A stretch of 64,000 bases of DNA from Chitinophagaceae bacterium (GCA_947504605.1 CANNJE010000002.1:24218-88217); one strand, 5' to 3'; positions 1 through 9,830 are shown, numbered from the stretch's first letter. Made by a program: numbers and translations. The notes: a model not told the origin generated them from the sequence alone.

Positions 1-1285
1 TGTAATTATAACTAAAACTAAGCATATTACTCATTTTAGTGTTAGACCAAATATAGGTTGGACTAAAACCAAAATCATTGCTCACATTTTTTATTCCATA
101 AGGATTAAGGCCACTGGCAGATTGGAAACCAAAATTATTGTAGTTAATATTTAAACTCCATTGATCATTAAACTGTGTAAACCAATTTAGGTTTCCAATA
201 AACTGATTAGCCTTTAATGTTGTATTGCTGATATTGTTTACCCGCTGTCCAAGGCTTGCCACAATGTTCATTTTGTTTTTCCATGTGTTCCATTTTGTAT
301 TGAGTAAATAATCAAATCTGTCAGGCTGCAAATAAGGATAACCAGCTGTTTGAAAACCAGCTCCAAAATATTTACTGCTTATTCCCAAATCAAAGTTTTT
401 TCCTTTTTTGCCAATGGCTGCAGTAGCAGCATAGTCCCTAACGGTTGATGTATGGGCCTTAATAAATGGATCGAATGATTTGATCAGTAGTGTAGCTGGT
501 GATGTTAAATCTCTGGTGAAAACAGATTGTGCGCCTTCCATTTTTACATACCAACCTTTTTTGAAATACACATTTGACAACAAACTTATAATAACAGCTT
601 CCTGTGGTTTAATGGTTATTGGCGGGGGTGCAGATGAGTTGACAAAATCTTTTCCCTTTGCAATATTTAAGGATATTTCATATTTTCCTTCCTTTTCTTT
701 CCCAAGTTGAAACATCCAGTTACGACGTTTATATGCACCCGCTATTGTTGGGGGACCGCTAAAATAACTTATACCTGCCTGCGAAACGCCAGTAAAAAAT
801 TTGATTCGATAGCTTTTAGGCCTAAGATCAAACCCTGCTCCAAATATTCCAATATCACCCGTACTTAACTCGCTGTATTTTAAATATTGAGTACCCAGTT
901 GTAATTCTGCCCATTTATATTTAGGGTTCACGGCAATATTATTTACCGGGTTAGTAATCCATTGTTTAAAATCCTGCTTTGGACCACCAGGAATAAAGCC
1001 ACTGTATGGCCCAGCAAAATTGGTGGGCAATGCTGCCATACTAATATTAAAAGGCAGCGAAAAATTTTTGTCAAATTGAAAGTTGGGCATAAAATTAAAG
1101 CGAACCTGGTTCCATGGTCGGCGTGGAGTGTAACCCATCCAGCCTGAAGGATTTCTATTTAAACCATACCCTTCATACGTAACCCCCATGGTTCCGCTTA
1201 CAGAAAAATCCGGCTTTTTCGTTTGTGCATAAGCCGCAGTATTCAGTAAAATAAAACCAGTTAAAATGATTTTTATTTTATTCAT
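1..1285 (-). CDS. Secreted outer-membrane beta-barrel-like protein, C-terminus truncated by window edge
   Basis: Open minus-strand frame from ATG at 1285 (MNKIKIILTGFILLNTAAYAQTKKPDFSVSGTMGVTYEGYGLNRNPSGW...) running off the left edge; signal peptide, alternating aromatic/polar strands; directly downstream of the 1294-6813 gene. Missing from the ORF track because it has no stop in the window. Confidence 0.75.
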   Translation of the reverse strand, partial: MNKIKIILTGFILLNTAAYAQTKKPDFSVSGTMGVTYEGYGLNRNPSGWMGYTPRRPWNQVRFNFMPNFQFDKNFSLPFNISMAALPTNFAGPYSGFIPGGPKQDFKQWITNPVNNIAVNPKYKWAELQLGTQYLKYSELSTGDIGIFGAGFDLRPKSYRIKFFTGVSQAGISYFSGPPTIAGAYKRRNWMFQLGKEKEGKYEISLNIAKGKDFVNSSAPPPITIKPQEAVIISLLSNVYFKKGWYVKMEGAQSVFTRDLTSPATLLIKSFDPFIKAHTSTVRDYAATAAIGKKGKNFDLGISSKYFGAGFQTAGYPYLQPDRFDYLLNTKWNTWKNKMNIVASLGQRVNNISNTTLKANQFIGNLNWFTQFNDQWSLNINYNNFGFQSASGLNPYGIKNVSNDFGFSPTYIWSNTKMSNMLSFSYNY

Positions 1286-1293
1286 AAAAAAAG

Positions 1294-4200
1294 TTATTTC
1301 TTTTTAATTACAAAGTCAAAACATTTTATCACTTCACATTCTTTACAATCATTGTCACGGAAAGTAAACTTCACACAAATCCTTCCTTTTAATTCGCAAC
1401 AATCTATGGCTGGTACCGGCGGCAAAATAAAATTGATGCCGATATTGGTATTGTTGGGAATAGGAATATTGGTTCCATTGTTCCAAACTATTTCCCGAGG
1501 GTTTTGGTATGCACCTGTACCGCTTCCATTAAATGAAGGAACCGACGTGCCGCCATACATAGTTATTTTTGGAGGTGCTGAGCCAATATTTGTTGCTGAT
1601 GCTGTACTGGCCCATGTGAAAGGAAGATTCACACATTTCAAACATTCTTTGCCAAAATTATCGGTGATGGTATAGCTGGTTACATTGGCTCTTACTTCGG
1701 TAATATTGGCTGTACTTAATCCACTAATGCTGAAATTTTCTGTGAGCAATGTTGCATTGGGAATTTGTATATAATTATATGTTACGGCACTCGTATCTGC
1801 TTTTATCTCGTAAGGGCAGCAAGGCAAAGAATCGCAGTTGGTAACAAATTTTATTACACAGCTATCACAAATTTTAGTGCCACACCAGCCATACATAGTT
1901 ACGGTATAAGTACCCGTTTGACTAGGCGTAAATGTTAGTGGCAAATTGCCGCTGGTTGTGCCTGAAGGCTGCTGCAATGTATATGTAACTGCCCCGTTAC
2001 AGGTTTCATCTGCACAGAGATAATTAGCATTTAATGTGATGGGTGTTTTACATTTTACTTCAATAGACTTATTCTTATCACAATTAATTTTCTTATTCAC
2101 ATTGTCAATTGTATAAGTTTTCTCTCCCCATTTACTTCCCTTACAATCGCAGGTACTGCACTTCACTTCAAACTTAATTACACAACTGTCGCAAATTTTA
2201 TCACCACACCATCCATACATTTTAAGCACATAAACACCTGTTAATGCAGGGGTAAATGTAAACGGCGCAGTACCGGTAATAGCCGGGCCACTGGGTGGTT
2301 GCAGGCTGTAGGTTACTTTAGGCGGGCAGGTAGTATCTTTACAATTATAGTTTGCATTAATGGTATAGGACTGAAAACAGTTTAATTTATAACTGTTATT
2401 ACACTCAAGTTTTTGAGTTGCTTCAACATTTGCATTTACTGCAATTGCTTCATCTTTTTCTACCGGCGTTTTCCCTTTCGTTTTTAAATTAATTTCGCCC
2501 CAATGGCTTTCTTTGCAATCACATTCGCCGCAATGTTTGATAAACAAATCGTATTTGCCGGATTTGCTTGCACAGGTATCTCCAATAAAATTTACTACAA
2601 TATAAATTTGATGTTGGCCTAACGATAAGAGGGCAAGATTCAAACCCGGCCCGGTAGAATGATAAACCCCATCAACAAACCATTGAATTACATACACTCC
2701 GTTATAAGTTTGTCCGGGACCTAAAGGTAGTGGCGGAATTAATTTTATAGTATCGCATAAAGTATCGCAGCCAATAGGGAACAAATCAACATATGGTCGT
2801 TTTTTAATGCTAACCATATTACTGTTTGCAAAACATCCGCTTACAGGATCTACCACAGTTACAAAATAATTTCCTGCCTGTGCAGTGGTCATTGTTTGCC
2901 CACTGGCTCCGTTACTCCATTGATAAATATAATTGGGGTTTGCTGGTAATGCCGTTGCAGTGTAGGTATGGCTGATTCCTTCGCACAAATAACCGATAGG
3001 CGCAATGGTTACTGTTGGGTTATTGTAAACATATACACAGAAAGTATCTTTTGCAATACAGCCCGTAGTAATATCTGTAACAGTTAAAATAAACTGGTAA
3101 GTACCCGAAGCATTCACCGTTACATTAGCATCGTATTGTGTATTGTTTGGAGTAAATGTAGCTGCAGGGGTTACTGTCCATGAATAAGTATAATTCGGAT
3201 CGTTTAAACTATTGTATAAATAAATACTTCCGCTGCCGCTGATGCATTGAATCGTTTGGCCTTTAATATCTGCAATGGGTAATGGGTGATGCCAGATATG
3301 CATTTTGTTAGACTGTGCAACACATCCTGTACCATTACTAACAATCACATAATACTCTCCTACCTGGTTTGTGCTATAGGTAGCACTTGTAGCACCGCTA
3401 ATTGGATTGCCATTAAAATACCATTGATAGGTTCCAAAGACGGCAGGAGTTGTGGTTAAAGTAAAACTACTGCCAGGACAAATGTATTTATCAGTAGGAA
3501 TGCTCACCGTTAATTTAGGTAAGATGGTAACTGTTTGACTATTGGTGGCCACACAACCTAATTGGTTTGTTACAGTTAAGGTTACCACACTTGTATTGGG
3601 TGGTGGTGCAGCAAACGTATGTGTTGTTGTTTGCAGGTTGGATTGATAGCCATCGCCAAAATTCCAGTTATAAGTATTGGTTGCAGCACCAGCTGTTGTA
3701 AAAGGAGCAGCCGTGCCTGCACAAATAGGAGTGGGTGGCGTAAAAGATGCTGTTGGAATATTAATCGTTACAGGATAAGTAACAGATGCTGTGCATCCGC
3801 TGCAGGATGATGTAACGGTCAGGGTTATGTTATAAGTACCCGAAACGATGGCAGTAAATACCGGGTTGGCTGCAGCAGGATTATTAAAACTTGCGCCTGC
3901 TGCACCTGTATATGTCCATGCGTGAGAAAGGATACTGCAACCCAAACTTGGTAAGGTGCTTGACAGATCCGATAATGTAACCTGGCCGCAATTTATGTTA
4001 GTTCCAAAATTGGCAGCCACCGGAACAATGTACCGGATCGTATCCAGCAAAGGACAAATATGTGGCGTAGGCGGTGGCGGGCAGTTGGATAACATGGAAG
4101 CAGTTACAATATAAATGCCAGGTAAGGTATATGCATGAGGAGCTGTAAATACGGTGCCGGTCATTCCTCCAAACGGGGTTGTTATTACAGGAGACCCATC

Positions 4201-6813
4201 CCCAAAATTCCAGAACACACCGGCATTTGGTGAGTTAGGTGGCGTAAAAGTATAGGTAGCATTAAAGATTACATTATTGCATGGATTACTGGGCGCATTA
4301 ATTACAATACCATAAGCAAGGGGTGCATCTTCATCTGTGATATTATATGATGGCCCCGCAAGGTCTTCGTTAAAAACTTTTGTTTCAATAAAACAAGACC
4401 CGTTGCAGGGAGAGAAATAAATGTTGATTGCATTAGAAGTGTCTTTACAATTACCGCAGGAAATAATTACAGAATAGGAACCCACTGCTGTAACATTTAA
4501 AGAAGGGCTGTTACTGCCAACGGGTGAACCTGCATTATACCATTGATAAGAGTAGGTGCAGGTAATATTAGACATTACTGTTGCAACCAGGTTCACATTA
4601 ATAGGATCTCCGGGGCAATAAGTATTATAATTATCTGCGGTAATATTTACGGTAGATACAAATGTATTGGGCACAAACACACTTGCCGAACCTGTGCAAC
4701 CCGTTCCTTTTACTTTATAAAATCCGGGAAGGGTGGCAGTATAAGTTGGCGTGGGTGTGCTGGTTATAAACACGCCGTTTAAATACCAGGAGTAAGGAGC
4801 TGTTGTTGGCGCTGTTGTAAGTGTTACTCCGGTTGTGCAAAGATTTCCTGTTGCGTTTAAAGTACCGTTTGGCGGATTGTTTACCGTAACGGTTAATGAA
4901 CTTGATTGGCCACAGGCTGTAACCGTTATCACACAGGTGGCTATTGCTGCGCCACCATTCCATTGCACATTAATACTGTTAGCAGATACAGGAATGATAG
5001 TTCCCAAAGCATTACTTAACGTCCAAGTGTAGCCGCCGGGAGGTACGGGGCCGGCAATCGTATAAGTTTCAGTGGCGTCAATACATACATTGATGTTACC
5101 TGTTGGTGCAGGGGGCGCACCCACTACCGAAACGTTGATAGTTTTGGGATTACAGGTACAGCCATTCACAGTTTGAGAAACACTGATGGTTCCGTTGGAG
5201 GTAAATTTTACCAACACAGAATCCTTATGTGCCCCCATGTATTGTATAATTGTTCCGTTGGTAACCGTCCAGTTAAATACACCCGCATTCATATTACTGC
5301 TAATGCTGTATGCCACCGTTTGATTGGCACAAACAATGATTGGCCCAATAATGCTGTTAAGTTTAGGAGTATCCAGTACTATCACATTTAATATAGCCGG
5401 CGATGAACAATAATTGGCAGGCGTTTGTGGCGTGGCAGTTATAGCATAATTTCCAACACTGGTCCATGTTATTTGTTGGCCGTTTAAACCCACAGGAGAA
5501 TTTGTAAATCCAGTATTGGGTAAAAATGTCCATGTCTGCACATTGCCATTGGCAAAATACGTGGCTGTCTTTCCCACACAAATTGGAGAGAGTCCATTTA
5601 ATGTAAATGGAGGTTTTATATTAATTTGGATAGTATCTGCGCCACTGCAACCGCTGTAAGGGTTGGTATAATTACAAATTAAATTGTAAGGTCCGCCAAC
5701 CAGGTTATTCCAGGTGATGTTGATTACATTATGGTTGCTGTCGTAACCGGCAATAGTGCCTCCACCACTTAATGTCCAGTTGTAAAACGTGCCAGGCAAT
5801 GCAGGCAGCGAGTAAGATGTGCTGGAACCTGGGCAAACAACTGTGGGTCCCTGTATTGGTAAATTGGGATACAATACAGGAACATTTAAAGTGGCCGTAT
5901 TGCCGCATGTGCCGGGGCAGTTAGCATTTAATGTAACACTGGTTGGATAAGCACTTGGCTGGTTCCATACAACCGTAACGCAGGTAGATCCTTGTCCGGA
6001 AACAATGGAGCCGCCACTTATCACCCAGTTTAATCCTGTGCAGCCGGTTGCGCTGGTACAATATTTTATGGTATCTCCCGCACAGAGCATTTTGCGGCAA
6101 TCATTTGTAAATATATCAATGCCTTTTTTGTTGCTTACGTTAAAGGTTACCATGGCGGTATCTTTGCAGCCACAGTCTCTTGTATCGCCGTTGCTACCCG
6201 ACACCGTGTTGGAAACGGTTAATATAACAGTATTCAAACCGGGAGGGAAAGCATGAGCAGGAGGATTTTGCAATGTTGAATAAGTGCCATCTCCAAAATC
6301 CCAATAATAGCTGGTAGCACCTACAGAACTGGCGCCGCTAAAATTAACCGGCGCCCCGGCACAAACAGGAACAGGGCTAAAAGTAATGCCCGCAGTTGGG
6401 CCATCTATTAAACAAACTTTTTTTGATATGGTATCTCTGCATTTTCCATCGGCACTGGTTATAATCACTTGCAAAAATCCAAGAGAACCATTGCCCCAAT
6501 TGATTGTTTTAGGATTGACAGGCAATGCTACCGGAGTCCCGCCAATTACTGTCCAGTTATAGGTAAACCCGGGTAAATATGGAACTATTAAATACTGCTG
6601 CGATTGGTTTTTGCAGGCAATCATGGTTGGCGCAGACCCTCCGGCATTTCCCCCTACAGGGTCCTGGTGATCCTGTTTGCAAGCAAGATCATTGCAAGGC
6701 TGAATGCGATTGGTAACCAATTCAAATTTGGGGCAACAACCAACAGGTTGTGTTTGTGCATTTGTTATTATAAATGCAAACAATAAAATAACGATGGTGA
6801 GTAATTTCTTCAT
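1294..6813 (-). CDS. 1839-aa secreted PKD/Ig-like repeat protein with Cys-rich C-terminal modules
   Basis: Signal peptide MKKLLTIVILLFAFIITNAQ; repeated PKD-like motifs (YYWDFGDGTYSTLQNPPAHAF, FWNFGDGSPV, YNWNFGDGYQSN); tandem Cys-rich units ending GWCGxKICDSCVIKF. Confidence 0.88.
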   Translation of the reverse strand: MKKLLTIVILLFAFIITNAQTQPVGCCPKFELVTNRIQPCNDLACKQDHQDPVGGNAGGSAPTMIACKNQSQQYLIVPYLPGFTYNWTVIGGTPVALPVNPKTINWGNGSLGFLQVIITSADGKCRDTISKKVCLIDGPTAGITFSPVPVCAGAPVNFSGASSVGATSYYWDFGDGTYSTLQNPPAHAFPPGLNTVILTVSNTVSGSNGDTRDCGCKDTAMVTFNVSNKKGIDIFTNDCRKMLCAGDTIKYCTSATGCTGLNWVISGGSIVSGQGSTCVTVVWNQPSAYPTSVTLNANCPGTCGNTATLNVPVLYPNLPIQGPTVVCPGSSTSYSLPALPGTFYNWTLSGGGTIAGYDSNHNVINITWNNLVGGPYNLICNYTNPYSGCSGADTIQINIKPPFTLNGLSPICVGKTATYFANGNVQTWTFLPNTGFTNSPVGLNGQQITWTSVGNYAITATPQTPANYCSSPAILNVIVLDTPKLNSIIGPIIVCANQTVAYSISSNMNAGVFNWTVTNGTIIQYMGAHKDSVLVKFTSNGTISVSQTVNGCTCNPKTINVSVVGAPPAPTGNINVCIDATETYTIAGPVPPGGYTWTLSNALGTIIPVSANSINVQWNGGAAIATCVITVTACGQSSSLTVTVNNPPNGTLNATGNLCTTGVTLTTAPTTAPYSWYLNGVFITSTPTPTYTATLPGFYKVKGTGCTGSASVFVPNTFVSTVNITADNYNTYCPGDPINVNLVATVMSNITCTYSYQWYNAGSPVGSNSPSLNVTAVGSYSVIISCGNCKDTSNAINIYFSPCNGSCFIETKVFNEDLAGPSYNITDEDAPLAYGIVINAPSNPCNNVIFNATYTFTPPNSPNAGVFWNFGDGSPVITTPFGGMTGTVFTAPHAYTLPGIYIVTASMLSNCPPPPTPHICPLLDTIRYIVPVAANFGTNINCGQVTLSDLSSTLPSLGCSILSHAWTYTGAAGASFNNPAAANPVFTAIVSGTYNITLTVTSSCSGCTASVTYPVTINIPTASFTPPTPICAGTAAPFTTAGAATNTYNWNFGDGYQSNLQTTTHTFAAPPPNTSVVTLTVTNQLGCVATNSQTVTILPKLTVSIPTDKYICPGSSFTLTTTPAVFGTYQWYFNGNPISGATSATYSTNQVGEYYVIVSNGTGCVAQSNKMHIWHHPLPIADIKGQTIQCISGSGSIYLYNSLNDPNYTYSWTVTPAATFTPNNTQYDANVTVNASGTYQFILTVTDITTGCIAKDTFCVYVYNNPTVTIAPIGYLCEGISHTYTATALPANPNYIYQWSNGASGQTMTTAQAGNYFVTVVDPVSGCFANSNMVSIKKRPYVDLFPIGCDTLCDTIKLIPPLPLGPGQTYNGVYVIQWFVDGVYHSTGPGLNLALLSLGQHQIYIVVNFIGDTCASKSGKYDLFIKHCGECDCKESHWGEINLKTKGKTPVEKDEAIAVNANVEATQKLECNNSYKLNCFQSYTINANYNCKDTTCPPKVTYSLQPPSGPAITGTAPFTFTPALTGVYVLKMYGWCGDKICDSCVIKFEVKCSTCDCKGSKWGEKTYTIDNVNKKINCDKNKSIEVKCKTPITLNANYLCADETCNGAVTYTLQQPSGTTSGNLPLTFTPSQTGTYTVTMYGWCGTKICDSCVIKFVTNCDSLPCCPYEIKADTSAVTYNYIQIPNATLLTENFSISGLSTANITEVRANVTSYTITDNFGKECLKCVNLPFTWASTASATNIGSAPPKITMYGGTSVPSFNGSGTGAYQNPREIVWNNGTNIPIPNNTNIGINFILPPVPAIDCCELKGRICVKFTFRDNDCKECEVIKCFDFVIKKK

Positions 6814-6818
6814 GGCAA

Positions 6819-8417
6819 TTATTTTGGATTGTTTTGGTTATCGTTACCGGTACCAGTTTTTGAACAGCCTTCTTTTTTCTTTTCGTAACAAACCAGTTTA
6901 TTGCAACTGGTACAATCCGTAAATTCTATTTTGTATCGGATGCAGTACCGGAATACGGCACTGCAACAGGGGGTTAATTGTGGAGTGGTTATATTAAAAT
7001 TGAGCGTTTGTTGTGGCCCATTCCATTGAATGCTGTTGCTGCCGTTTGTAAAATGGCCGTAGGTGGATGCATCTTTATTACAGGGAATACAAAAATCATT
7101 TTCGGGTACCATTTCAAAATAAACCAAATCAGCCTGAATACTTTTTATTGTTTTAGCAGGTGAGGTTGTAATGCTAACCGGCTGGTTAAATGAAAGAATA
7201 TTATTACTAAAATTTATTGTTGAAGGTGCAGGAGCATTTAATGTAAAATATTTTTCATCACAGTCTGTACAGACGCAATGCAGGGTATCCCAGGCTGTTT
7301 CATTGTTGATATTATCAGGGTCGGTTGGCCAGATAGCATCCACAATAAACTTGATGGTCTTCATACTATCTACACAGTTTATAGAAGCTGTAAATACCTG
7401 CGATGAATTAGCCGCTATAGTATTGGGCAATAGAGGCACTGTTGGTGTTAGTGTTGTTAAGGGCCCTGTTCCATTTACCCTGTATTTTATAGCTGTAACC
7501 TGAGCTGGATTTGTAAGATGTTGATTGTTTACTTTGATGTAAATATTTTGTTTGCCATTGATGCAACAGCTGATATCAATACTATCAATTTTTGTATTGA
7601 TATTATCATCTAATATTTTAAAACTGTACGTTTCGCTGTTGCCATTATTTCTTCCAATTGGTTTTTCCTCTTTGGTTAATGCCTGAACCTGCCAGATAAA
7701 ATCGCAGAGATAGGGAGGTTTACAAGGGCCAATTTCCAAATTGCTAACCATTGCCTGCGTGATATTTTGTACGTCTTTAGTAACTAACGGAGCATTGCTT
7801 TTCATGGCCTGGACGCCTGATTGACCCTGCATCAGTTGCCAAATTTTTAAACGATATGCAACTGGCTCTTTCGGTTTAGGTACTAAAGGGGTCCATCGAA
7901 ACATGATTGGTTTCAACAACTCTTTTTTATTGATGGATTTACCATTTTCTGGCGTAATCAAGGTGGGCGGGGCAAAGTCTTCTGCTTTTGCCGTTTCTAC
8001 TTTAAAATCTTTACACAATTCATTACTAATAGCAATACGATCGAGGTTAAAAAACTGAACACAAATTTGATAGTTGCCATCTTTAAGTGCCGGACAATTA
8101 CCCAGCATCCCTGTAAGTTCATTAGTTGTAAAAGTTTTTACATTAAATGAACCAATCGTGCCTGCATAAGAGGGATTGTTGCCGCAAATGATCGCGCCAT
8201 TACTTTTGATTTGTATAACTAACTTTGGTTCCTTCAATTGCACTGTGGGCAACTTTTGGGAAGTGAGTATAAGTGCTGCGGGCACTTTATTCCAGTCGTC
8301 AATCTTTGACGGTAAAATATTTTTTACCTGAAAGTTTATAATTTTTATCTGTTGTTCCTGACTATGTACCCCTGTACAAAGGGATGCCAAAAATAACAGT
8401 AGCAGTAGCTTTTTCAT
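6819..8417 (-). CDS. Secreted TANFOR-like / FN3-like domain protein
   Basis: Start re-set to the internal Met (MKKLLLLLFLASLCTGVHSQ). DGNYQICVQFFNLDRIAISNELCKDFKV...PPTLITPENGKSI...IMFRWTPL resembles TANFOR-type proteins from memory. 5 nt upstream of the next gene. Confidence 0.65.
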   Translation of the reverse strand: MKKLLLLLFLASLCTGVHSQEQQIKIINFQVKNILPSKIDDWNKVPAALILTSQKLPTVQLKEPKLVIQIKSNGAIICGNNPSYAGTIGSFNVKTFTTNELTGMLGNCPALKDGNYQICVQFFNLDRIAISNELCKDFKVETAKAEDFAPPTLITPENGKSINKKELLKPIMFRWTPLVPKPKEPVAYRLKIWQLMQGQSGVQAMKSNAPLVTKDVQNITQAMVSNLEIGPCKPPYLCDFIWQVQALTKEEKPIGRNNGNSETYSFKILDDNINTKIDSIDISCCINGKQNIYIKVNNQHLTNPAQVTAIKYRVNGTGPLTTLTPTVPLLPNTIAANSSQVFTASINCVDSMKTIKFIVDAIWPTDPDNINNETAWDTLHCVCTDCDEKYFTLNAPAPSTINFSNNILSFNQPVSITTSPAKTIKSIQADLVYFEMVPENDFCIPCNKDASTYGHFTNGSNSIQWNGPQQTLNFNITTPQLTPCCSAVFRYCIRYKIEFTDCTSCNKLVCYEKKKEGCSKTGTGNDNQNNPK

Positions 8418-8714: not shown

Positions 8715-9830
8715 ATGAAGTTTATCGTTTCGTCTTCGGCCTTACTTAAACAACTGCAGCAAATAAGCGGTGTTATTAATGCCAACACTGTTCTTCCTAT
8801 TTTAGAGGATTTTTTATTTGAAATAGAAAAAAATAAGCTCACTGTGGTGGCCACAGATCTGGAAACCGTAATGAAAGTACATTTGGATATTGAAGCCAAG
8901 GACAGCGGAAAAGTATGTATTCCAGCTAAAATATTGTTAGACTCTCTAAAAAATATTCCGGAGCAGCCGCTTACTTTTAATATTGACAAAAATTTTGGCG
9001 TAGAAATTACCAGCGACAATGGTAAGTATAAAGTAATGGGTGAAAATCCTGATAACTTCCCAAAAGAGCCAGCTGCCGATGATGCCAACAGTTTTACGAT
9101 GACATCTACAGCCCTGGTAACAGCGATCAATAAAGCCATTTTTGCTGTAAGCAGCGATGATCTTCGCCCTGCTATGACCGGCGTATTTTTTGAACTCGAT
9201 ACCAAAGGACTGAGCTTTGTAGCAACGGATGCACACAGGCTGGTAAAATATACCCGCAGTGATGTAAGCTGCCCACAGAAAGATTCTTTTATCGTTCCTA
9301 AAAAACCTTTGCAACTTTTAAAAACAGCATTGCCCGATAATCAGGACGAACTAAATGTTTCTTACAATGGTAATCACCTATTTGTAAAACATGGCGGCAC
9401 AGAATTGGTATGTCGTTTAATTGACGCTCGTTTCCCTGATTATAAAGTAGTAATTCCCGTAGACAATCCTTATAAAATGACTGTAAACCGCTCTGCTTTC
9501 CAAAATGCATTGCGCAGGGTGAGTGTATTTAGTAATAAGAGCACCAACCAGGTAGCATTAAGCATAAGTGGAAGTGAACTGCAGCTGGCCAGCCAGGATG
9601 TTGACTTTAGTTTTGAAGGAAACGAACGCATGGCCTGCCAGTATGATGGCGAAGACCTACAAATTGCCTTTAACGCAAAATTCTTAATTGAAATGCTGAA
9701 TGGCGCTGATACTGACGATATCAATATGGAATTAAGCACGCCCACAAAAGCGGGCATCATCAAGCCAACAGAACAGGGGGAAGGTGAAGAGTTACTGATG
9801 CTGGTAATGCCGCTGATGTTGAATAATTAA
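8715..9830 (+). CDS. dnaN: DNA polymerase III subunit beta (sliding clamp)
   Basis: 371 aa; MKFIVSSSALLKQLQQISGVINANTVLPILEDFLFEI...FVATDAHRLVKY...LLMLVMPLMLNN, typical DnaN. Confidence 0.97.
   Translation: MKFIVSSSALLKQLQQISGVINANTVLPILEDFLFEIEKNKLTVVATDLETVMKVHLDIEAKDSGKVCIPAKILLDSLKNIPEQPLTFNIDKNFGVEITSDNGKYKVMGENPDNFPKEPAADDANSFTMTSTALVTAINKAIFAVSSDDLRPAMTGVFFELDTKGLSFVATDAHRLVKYTRSDVSCPQKDSFIVPKKPLQLLKTALPDNQDELNVSYNGNHLFVKHGGTELVCRLIDARFPDYKVVIPVDNPYKMTVNRSAFQNALRRVSVFSNKSTNQVALSISGSELQLASQDVDFSFEGNERMACQYDGEDLQIAFNAKFLIEMLNGADTDDINMELSTPTKAGIIKPTEQGEGEELLMLVMPLMLNN

Follow-up and report, generated by a model that had tools for sequence, protein, structure and literature searches.

Covarying cysteine-rich C-terminal modules in adjoining exported proteins of a Chitinophagaceae operon suggest a partner-recognition domain

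Type B C-terminal domains (CTDs) of the type IX secretion system (T9SS) pair cognately with PorP/SprF barrels (PMC12618676, PMC9143113). In TANFOR polymorphic toxins, the variable part can belong to the carrier itself or be encoded by the adjacent gene, and proteins encoded beside a TANFOR carrier may bind that carrier (PMC7073777). The locus described here, from a Chitinophagaceae soil/water bacterium, contains two adjoining genes for different exported proteins, A and B, that carry the same kind of cysteine-rich domain at their C-termini (the A-module and the B-module). The window, i.e., the whole stretch of 64,000 nucleotides that was analysed, corresponds to G000:C2:24218-88217. A and B stand at the head of a conserved operon with the order A-B-C-D; A, B and C are tightly packed on the minus strand of the window, and an apparent Sec signal peptide can be read from the sequence at the N-terminus of all four products. 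The features are as follows, with positions counted from the first letter of the window unless a contig is named.

Gene A, 6819..8417, minus strand: 532 aa counted from the second start; signal peptide, TANFOR-like domain, Fn3-like domain, Ig-like middle domain and C-terminal module.
TANFOR-like domain of A, 7992..8360, minus strand: residues 20-142, from hhalign.
Fn3-like domain of A, 7602..7970, minus strand: residues 150-272, from AF2 strand order and Foldseek matches to Fn3/Ig proteins.
Ig-like middle domain of A, 7278..7595, minus strand: residues 275-380, from AF2.
A-module, 6873..7271, minus strand: residues 383-515, with 10 conserved Cys.
Gene B, 1294..6813, minus strand: 1839 aa; signal peptide, PKD/Ig-like repeats, two Cys-rich repeats and C-terminal module.
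Cys-rich repeat 1 of B, 2158..2523, minus strand: residues 1431-1552, CDCKESHWGE...CVIKFEVKC, read from the sequence.
Cys-rich repeat 2 of B, 1834..2151, minus strand: residues 1555-1660, CDCKGSKWGE...CVIKFVTNC, read from the sequence.
B-module, 1297..1821, minus strand: residues 1665-1839, with 10 conserved Cys and a predicted beta-sandwich fold.
Gene C, 1..1285 in the window and ~445 bases further outside (G000:C2:23772-25502), minus strand: 576 aa, probable outer-membrane beta-barrel.
Gene D, outside the window, after C (G000:C2:22873-23772): 299 aa, TANFOR-like.

Several PKD repeats of B exceed the Pfam cut-off (PKD_4, 91 bits, E = 5e-26; PKD, 54.5 bits), BiPBP_C is also matched in Pfam, and by its repeats B is classed as a predicted PKD-domain surface protein. 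The two tandem Cys-rich repeats (1834-2523, CDCKxSxWGE...CDSCVIKF) sit just before the B-module, and in some relatives similar repeats are placed after the module. AF2 models A as four beta-sandwich domains (pLDDT 84), for which Foldseek returned only generic Ig/Fn3 chains. The Ig-like middle domain is exchangeable between loci, and the Fn3-like domain occurs in two to four tandem copies in five loci (L107, L112, L121, L148 and L035), as if the length of a putative adaptor varied. A gene that looks dnaN-like by sequence (8715-9830) is divergent from the operon, and the same neighbour is found in L106, L109, L110, L120 and L151.

In a preliminary description, the ends of the two proteins had been proposed to share a module on the basis of common motifs, and both the motifs and the two open reading frames are present on the minus strand. 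In a BLASTP comparison of A and B, the match is confined to the final 35 aa (E = 0.008). Because such single-sequence comparison is too weak to settle homology, profiles and shuffled controls were used, with module borders set by hand for the alignments. A profile of nine A-type modules matched one of seven B-type modules over 130 columns with a probability of 98.3%, E = 1.3e-14 and a score of 90.6 (hhalign), compared to a maximum of 22.9 for shuffled columns and 31.7 for the best of 100 controls in which the Cys columns were kept fixed. Similarly, the Smith-Waterman score of the two modules was 77, versus 33.6 +/- 6.0 for shuffles (z = 7.3; 0/2000 as high), and the B-type module of G020/G008 is intermediate between the groups (E = 1.7e-17 and 5e-9). 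The shared module is thus real and its approximate spans hold, except that the end of A as first drawn (6819-7260) takes in a 17-aa tail, and was refined to 6873-7271.

The A- and B-modules have ten cysteine columns in common, located at residues 383, 386, 443, 446, 484, 485, 492, 502, 505 and 510 of A (P0003) and at 1665, 1666, 1724, 1727, 1805, 1806, 1813, 1823, 1826 and 1831 of B (P0002), which would suffice for five disulfides. AF2 predicts a compact beta-sandwich for the B-module (pLDDT 87, pTM 0.85), and the A-module, the last of the four domains modelled for A, has the same order of elements. Sequence searches of Pfam, NCBIfam and the PDB with both module alignments returned no credible relative, so that the module matches no sequence family of these libraries. 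A fold search with the module matched generic folds of the adhesin, pilin and cohesin-like kinds with low TM values, and no prior account of it was found in the paper library searched for TANFOR and related subjects.

The label TANFOR-like, given to A in the preliminary description, stands at the profile level only. The N-terminal domain of A and protein D align with TIGR02542 matches (hhalign E = 7e-8 and 6e-14, respectively), and the N-terminal part of A is homologous to the whole of D (E = 6e-38). TIGR02542 itself matches neither A nor D, has no match in the same genome or among 34 A proteins, and had its curated cut-off exceeded in none of 295 genomes. Gene C has no match in Pfam, NCBIfam or the PDB, but composition and the C-terminus make it a probable outer-membrane barrel. 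No toxin domain was found in A, B, C or D with Pfam and NCBIfam, and no immunity gene was found. Another locus (L041:1225-12451, G004) encodes proteins of 821 aa, 364 aa (TANFOR-like) and 2544 aa, the last of which ends in a sequence reminiscent of RHS repeats; this locus may be a related platform for a different passenger.

The distribution of the module was assessed in two ways. A barrel-guided scan of 84,980 species genomes yielded 47 loci, mostly from Chitinophagaceae (Ferruginibacter and others) but also from Flavobacterium; many of the genomes sampled are metagenome-assembled. Cultured bacteria with these genes include Flavobacterium muglaense, F. erciyesense and Limnovirga soli. Where A and B were both readable, both carried the module in 35 loci (the window counted), neither did in four A-B pairs, and no pair was discordant. 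The module-less pairs are those of L123, L124 and L131, in which no substitute module is common to the ends of A and B, and the second pair of Limnovirga soli (L136). These loci were picked via barrel C, but the pairing is also seen in an unbiased, module-only profile search of 399 genomes of the order and 395 of the class. The module was detected in 16 and 7 of these, respectively, and 15 of ~19 credible genomes have an adjoining gene pair with one module each; scoring covered the nine top candidates of each genome, such that the copies counted are a minimum. Four genomes that are 99-100% complete (G242, G316, G266 and G060) have an adjoining pair of module genes and no barrel C detectable genome-wide, and in G350, which also has such a pair, the sole C homologue is distant and encoded far away. 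The TANFOR-like domain is absent from the A-like proteins of barrel-less-type pairs. In L087-L090 and L083, these instead begin with 300-400 cysteine-poor residues that match nothing in Pfam or the PDB and look, by eye, like an outer-membrane barrel; if this were truly a barrel, these proteins would naturally combine anchor and module in one chain.

Several loci differ in layout from the window. In Limnovirga soli (L084/L136), a second A-B pair without the module lies inside the same operon (L084:12484-16334), and consists of a TANFOR-like A whose C-terminus differs and an M43 metallopeptidase as B, which would be a further kind of passenger for this platform. In L040:3036-9659 (= L125), a single A gene is shared by two consecutive B genes, both with a module of the B type. 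A response regulator of ~255 aa is encoded directly upstream of A in barrel-type and barrel-less loci alike: L105 (101-3891), L107, L112, L114, L118, L134, L148 and L087-L090. The two that were tested, from L105 and L088, are LytTR regulators adjoining a propeller-sensor histidine kinase, and therefore shared regulation is suggested.

Co-variation was measured from pairwise identities in 26 non-redundant complete loci. The A-module correlates with the B-module of the next gene at r = 0.93, and at 0.91 when the body of A is held constant (0/2000 permutations), as compared to only 0.49 with the remainder of protein A, a value that falls to -0.07 given the B-module. For C and D, r = 0.88. A sliding window along A shows the correlation with the B-module rising from ~0.4 to >0.8 at residues 380-400, i.e., at the module border (383). 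Trees give a similar picture: the A- and B-module trees have 16-18 of 23 splits in common and the C and D trees 16-17, versus 9/23 for the A TANFOR-like domain and C, three for the A-module and A TANFOR-like domain, and at most three for permuted leaves. Of 12 supported splits in the A-module tree, nine contradict the A-body tree and two the B-module tree. The common history of the A TANFOR-like domain and C is clear but moderate. The correlation is 0.89 within the main module type and 0.89 among the other types, and the pattern is kept in every subsample of 18 loci. In a joint tree, A- and B-modules form mirror-image clades, in which the modules of G350, G242, G316 and G060 also take mirror positions. 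For instance, L106 and L110 have A bodies and barrels near those of the window (0.6-0.7 similarity), but their A-modules are down to 0.06-0.07, and B is swapped for an unrelated ~1045-aa protein with an equally different module. Gene conversion between A- and B-modules is excluded, as identity is 0.199 within the same locus and 0.204 between different loci.

Such a pattern might also arise if recombination carried the 3' end of gene A together with gene B as one cassette, the N-terminal part of A supplying homology for the exchange, in which case the modules need not touch. The A-module is encoded beside B, with a median intergenic gap of ~11 bp across loci, and the whole body of B also correlates with the A-module (0.74). 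However, the correlation between the modules is still 0.87 given the B body. Moreover, correlation with the A-module grows with distance along B, from 0.67 at the N-terminus and 0.70 in the middle to 0.92 in the last 200 aa and 0.94 in the module, such that the correlation is weakest for the part of B closest to the A-module and strongest for the module at the far end. The same module types also recur in loci with unrelated B bodies: L105, L135 and L140 match L107, L108, L117 and L119 in both module types, and yet their B bodies have a similarity of 0.02-0.05. Additionally, the B-module and C are adjacent in most loci, and yet r = 0.45. The transfer of a single continuous stretch does not suffice to explain this pattern; because the similarity of divergent bodies saturates, the B-body test discounts it only partly, and linkage without contact is reduced to an unlikely explanation rather than fully excluded. 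It is less likely still that both modules dock side by side on one surface or envelope component, each adapting to it. Two homologous domains with one Cys framework would suit such an arrangement, as would an operon that holds a barrel and a TANFOR protein, but the modules are weakly correlated with C (0.44-0.45) and D (0.36-0.37), and module pairs are kept in the four nearly complete or complete genomes without detectable C. Docking of the modules on barrel C in particular is disfavoured by the same two observations (r ~0.45; module pairs in C-less genomes).

The module could instead be a new T9SS export or sorting signal, comparable to the type B CTDs with their PorP/SprF shuttles, as its C-terminal position, the adjoining barrel gene and the cognate-pair logic of those domains (PMC12618676, PMC9143113) would suggest; the same genome encodes T9SS cargo, with 59 Por_Secre_tail matches at E <= 0.001. 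Nevertheless, the module is internal in several B orthologues, where ~120 aa or a beta-lactamase-fold domain follow it. For instance, the Flavobacterium-type B of L138 (3847-9978) has a beta-lactamase/D-aminopeptidase-fold domain past the module (PF00144, E = 8e-49); the Flavobacterium-type B proteins of L130 and L142 have similar ends. In the distant members L085, L096 and L091, a T9SS type A CTD is present as a domain of its own after the module. These positions argue against a sorting signal, one of the roles originally proposed, and for a domain that connects proteins. Furthermore, the module co-varies with another secreted protein and not with the barrel, and the CTD models found nothing: as originally observed, neither A nor B has a canonical T9SS CTD (TIGR04183/PF18962, no match at E <= 1), none of 34 A proteins has a CTD match, and the type B model in NCBIfam (TIGR04131) matches neither A, B nor the tested relatives. 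A sorting signal is therefore improbable. A partnerless role as a disulfide-rich cap that merely stabilises the end of surface proteins would be in keeping with a compact beta-sandwich with ten conserved Cys and with the existence of single copies, but would leave the 35/4/0 co-occurrence and the r of 0.93 unexplained, and is very improbable.

The reading preferred here, at a probability of roughly 0.6, is that the module serves in cognate partner recognition (docking), and that A is an exported adaptor that holds B to the cell envelope. The co-variation of the modules suggests that A meets B through them, presumably by direct contact. A would then have two specificities: its N-terminal TANFOR-like domain would pair with the probable barrel C and the short TANFOR-like D, and its C-terminal beta-sandwich, predicted to be disulfide-rich, would recognise B via the module of the same family. 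B would be a variable passenger, comprising a PKD/Ig stalk, DUF11 or SdrD_B repeats, or a hydrolase-fold domain, which A would tether to the envelope, most probably on the outside of the cell. With each new B, the A-module would be replaced too and the rest of A, C and D kept, the modules changing in pairs because matching must be maintained. Of the roles raised in the preliminary description, pairing is strongly supported by the co-occurrence, by the module correlation and by the change in covariation partner at the edge of the module. Anchoring is plausible on the indirect grounds that the operon has a probable barrel and that the TANFOR-like domain of A varies with it. The proposal that the module is dedicated to this operon is correct in part: module pairs occur in the four C-less genomes, and pairing is not its sole use, as single modules are present in a few T9SS cargo proteins.

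More broadly, and tentatively, it is quite possible that these modules represent an undescribed disulfide-rich beta-sandwich docking family, in which paralogous modules form matched heterodimers, and adhesin-like stalks or hydrolases are exchanged as passengers on a fixed outer-membrane TANFOR-barrel platform, in the manner of a plug-and-socket surface display. If so, an unnamed domain would gain a partner and a function, TANFOR-like domains would gain a working hypothesis as the link between exported proteins and an outer-membrane barrel, and Bacteroidota would have a route other than T9SS sorting domains for keeping large proteins at the envelope. Matched module pairs have been exchanged repeatedly in nature, and specificity is thus directly testable by swapping modules; a possible application would be an orthogonal docking pair for surface display.

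Among described systems, type B CTDs with PorP/SprF are the nearest functional parallel. Both are found in Bacteroidota and involve large secreted proteins in which recognition is assigned to a domain at the C-terminus and the cognate partner is encoded next door, and both would anchor to the envelope through an outer-membrane barrel, as proposed here. In contrast, the partner at this locus is a second secreted protein with a homologous module rather than a barrel, A and B have no type B CTD, and the module is sometimes internal. TANFOR polymorphic toxins (TIGR02542; PMC7073777) resemble A in having an N-terminal TANFOR-like domain on an exported carrier, but A falls below the TIGR02542 cut-off, no toxin or immunity gene was found, B is of a surface type, and the barrel C and D are absent from that paper's account (PMC7073777). 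T6SS adaptor and MIX/FIX carriers, as far as they are cited in PMC7073777, likewise have adjoining carrier and cargo genes, fused or split, although their machinery and domains are unrelated. Matched surface modules that join separate proteins, as proposed here, are also the principle of cohesin-dockerin pairs. Dockerin is a small calcium-binding helical domain, whereas here both partners would come from one beta-sandwich family. A cohesin (5nrk, TMt 0.53) is among the better fold matches of the module, for which TM on the target is at most 0.53, but there is no sequence relation: searches for cohesin membership gave no PDB sequence match and no strong structural match.
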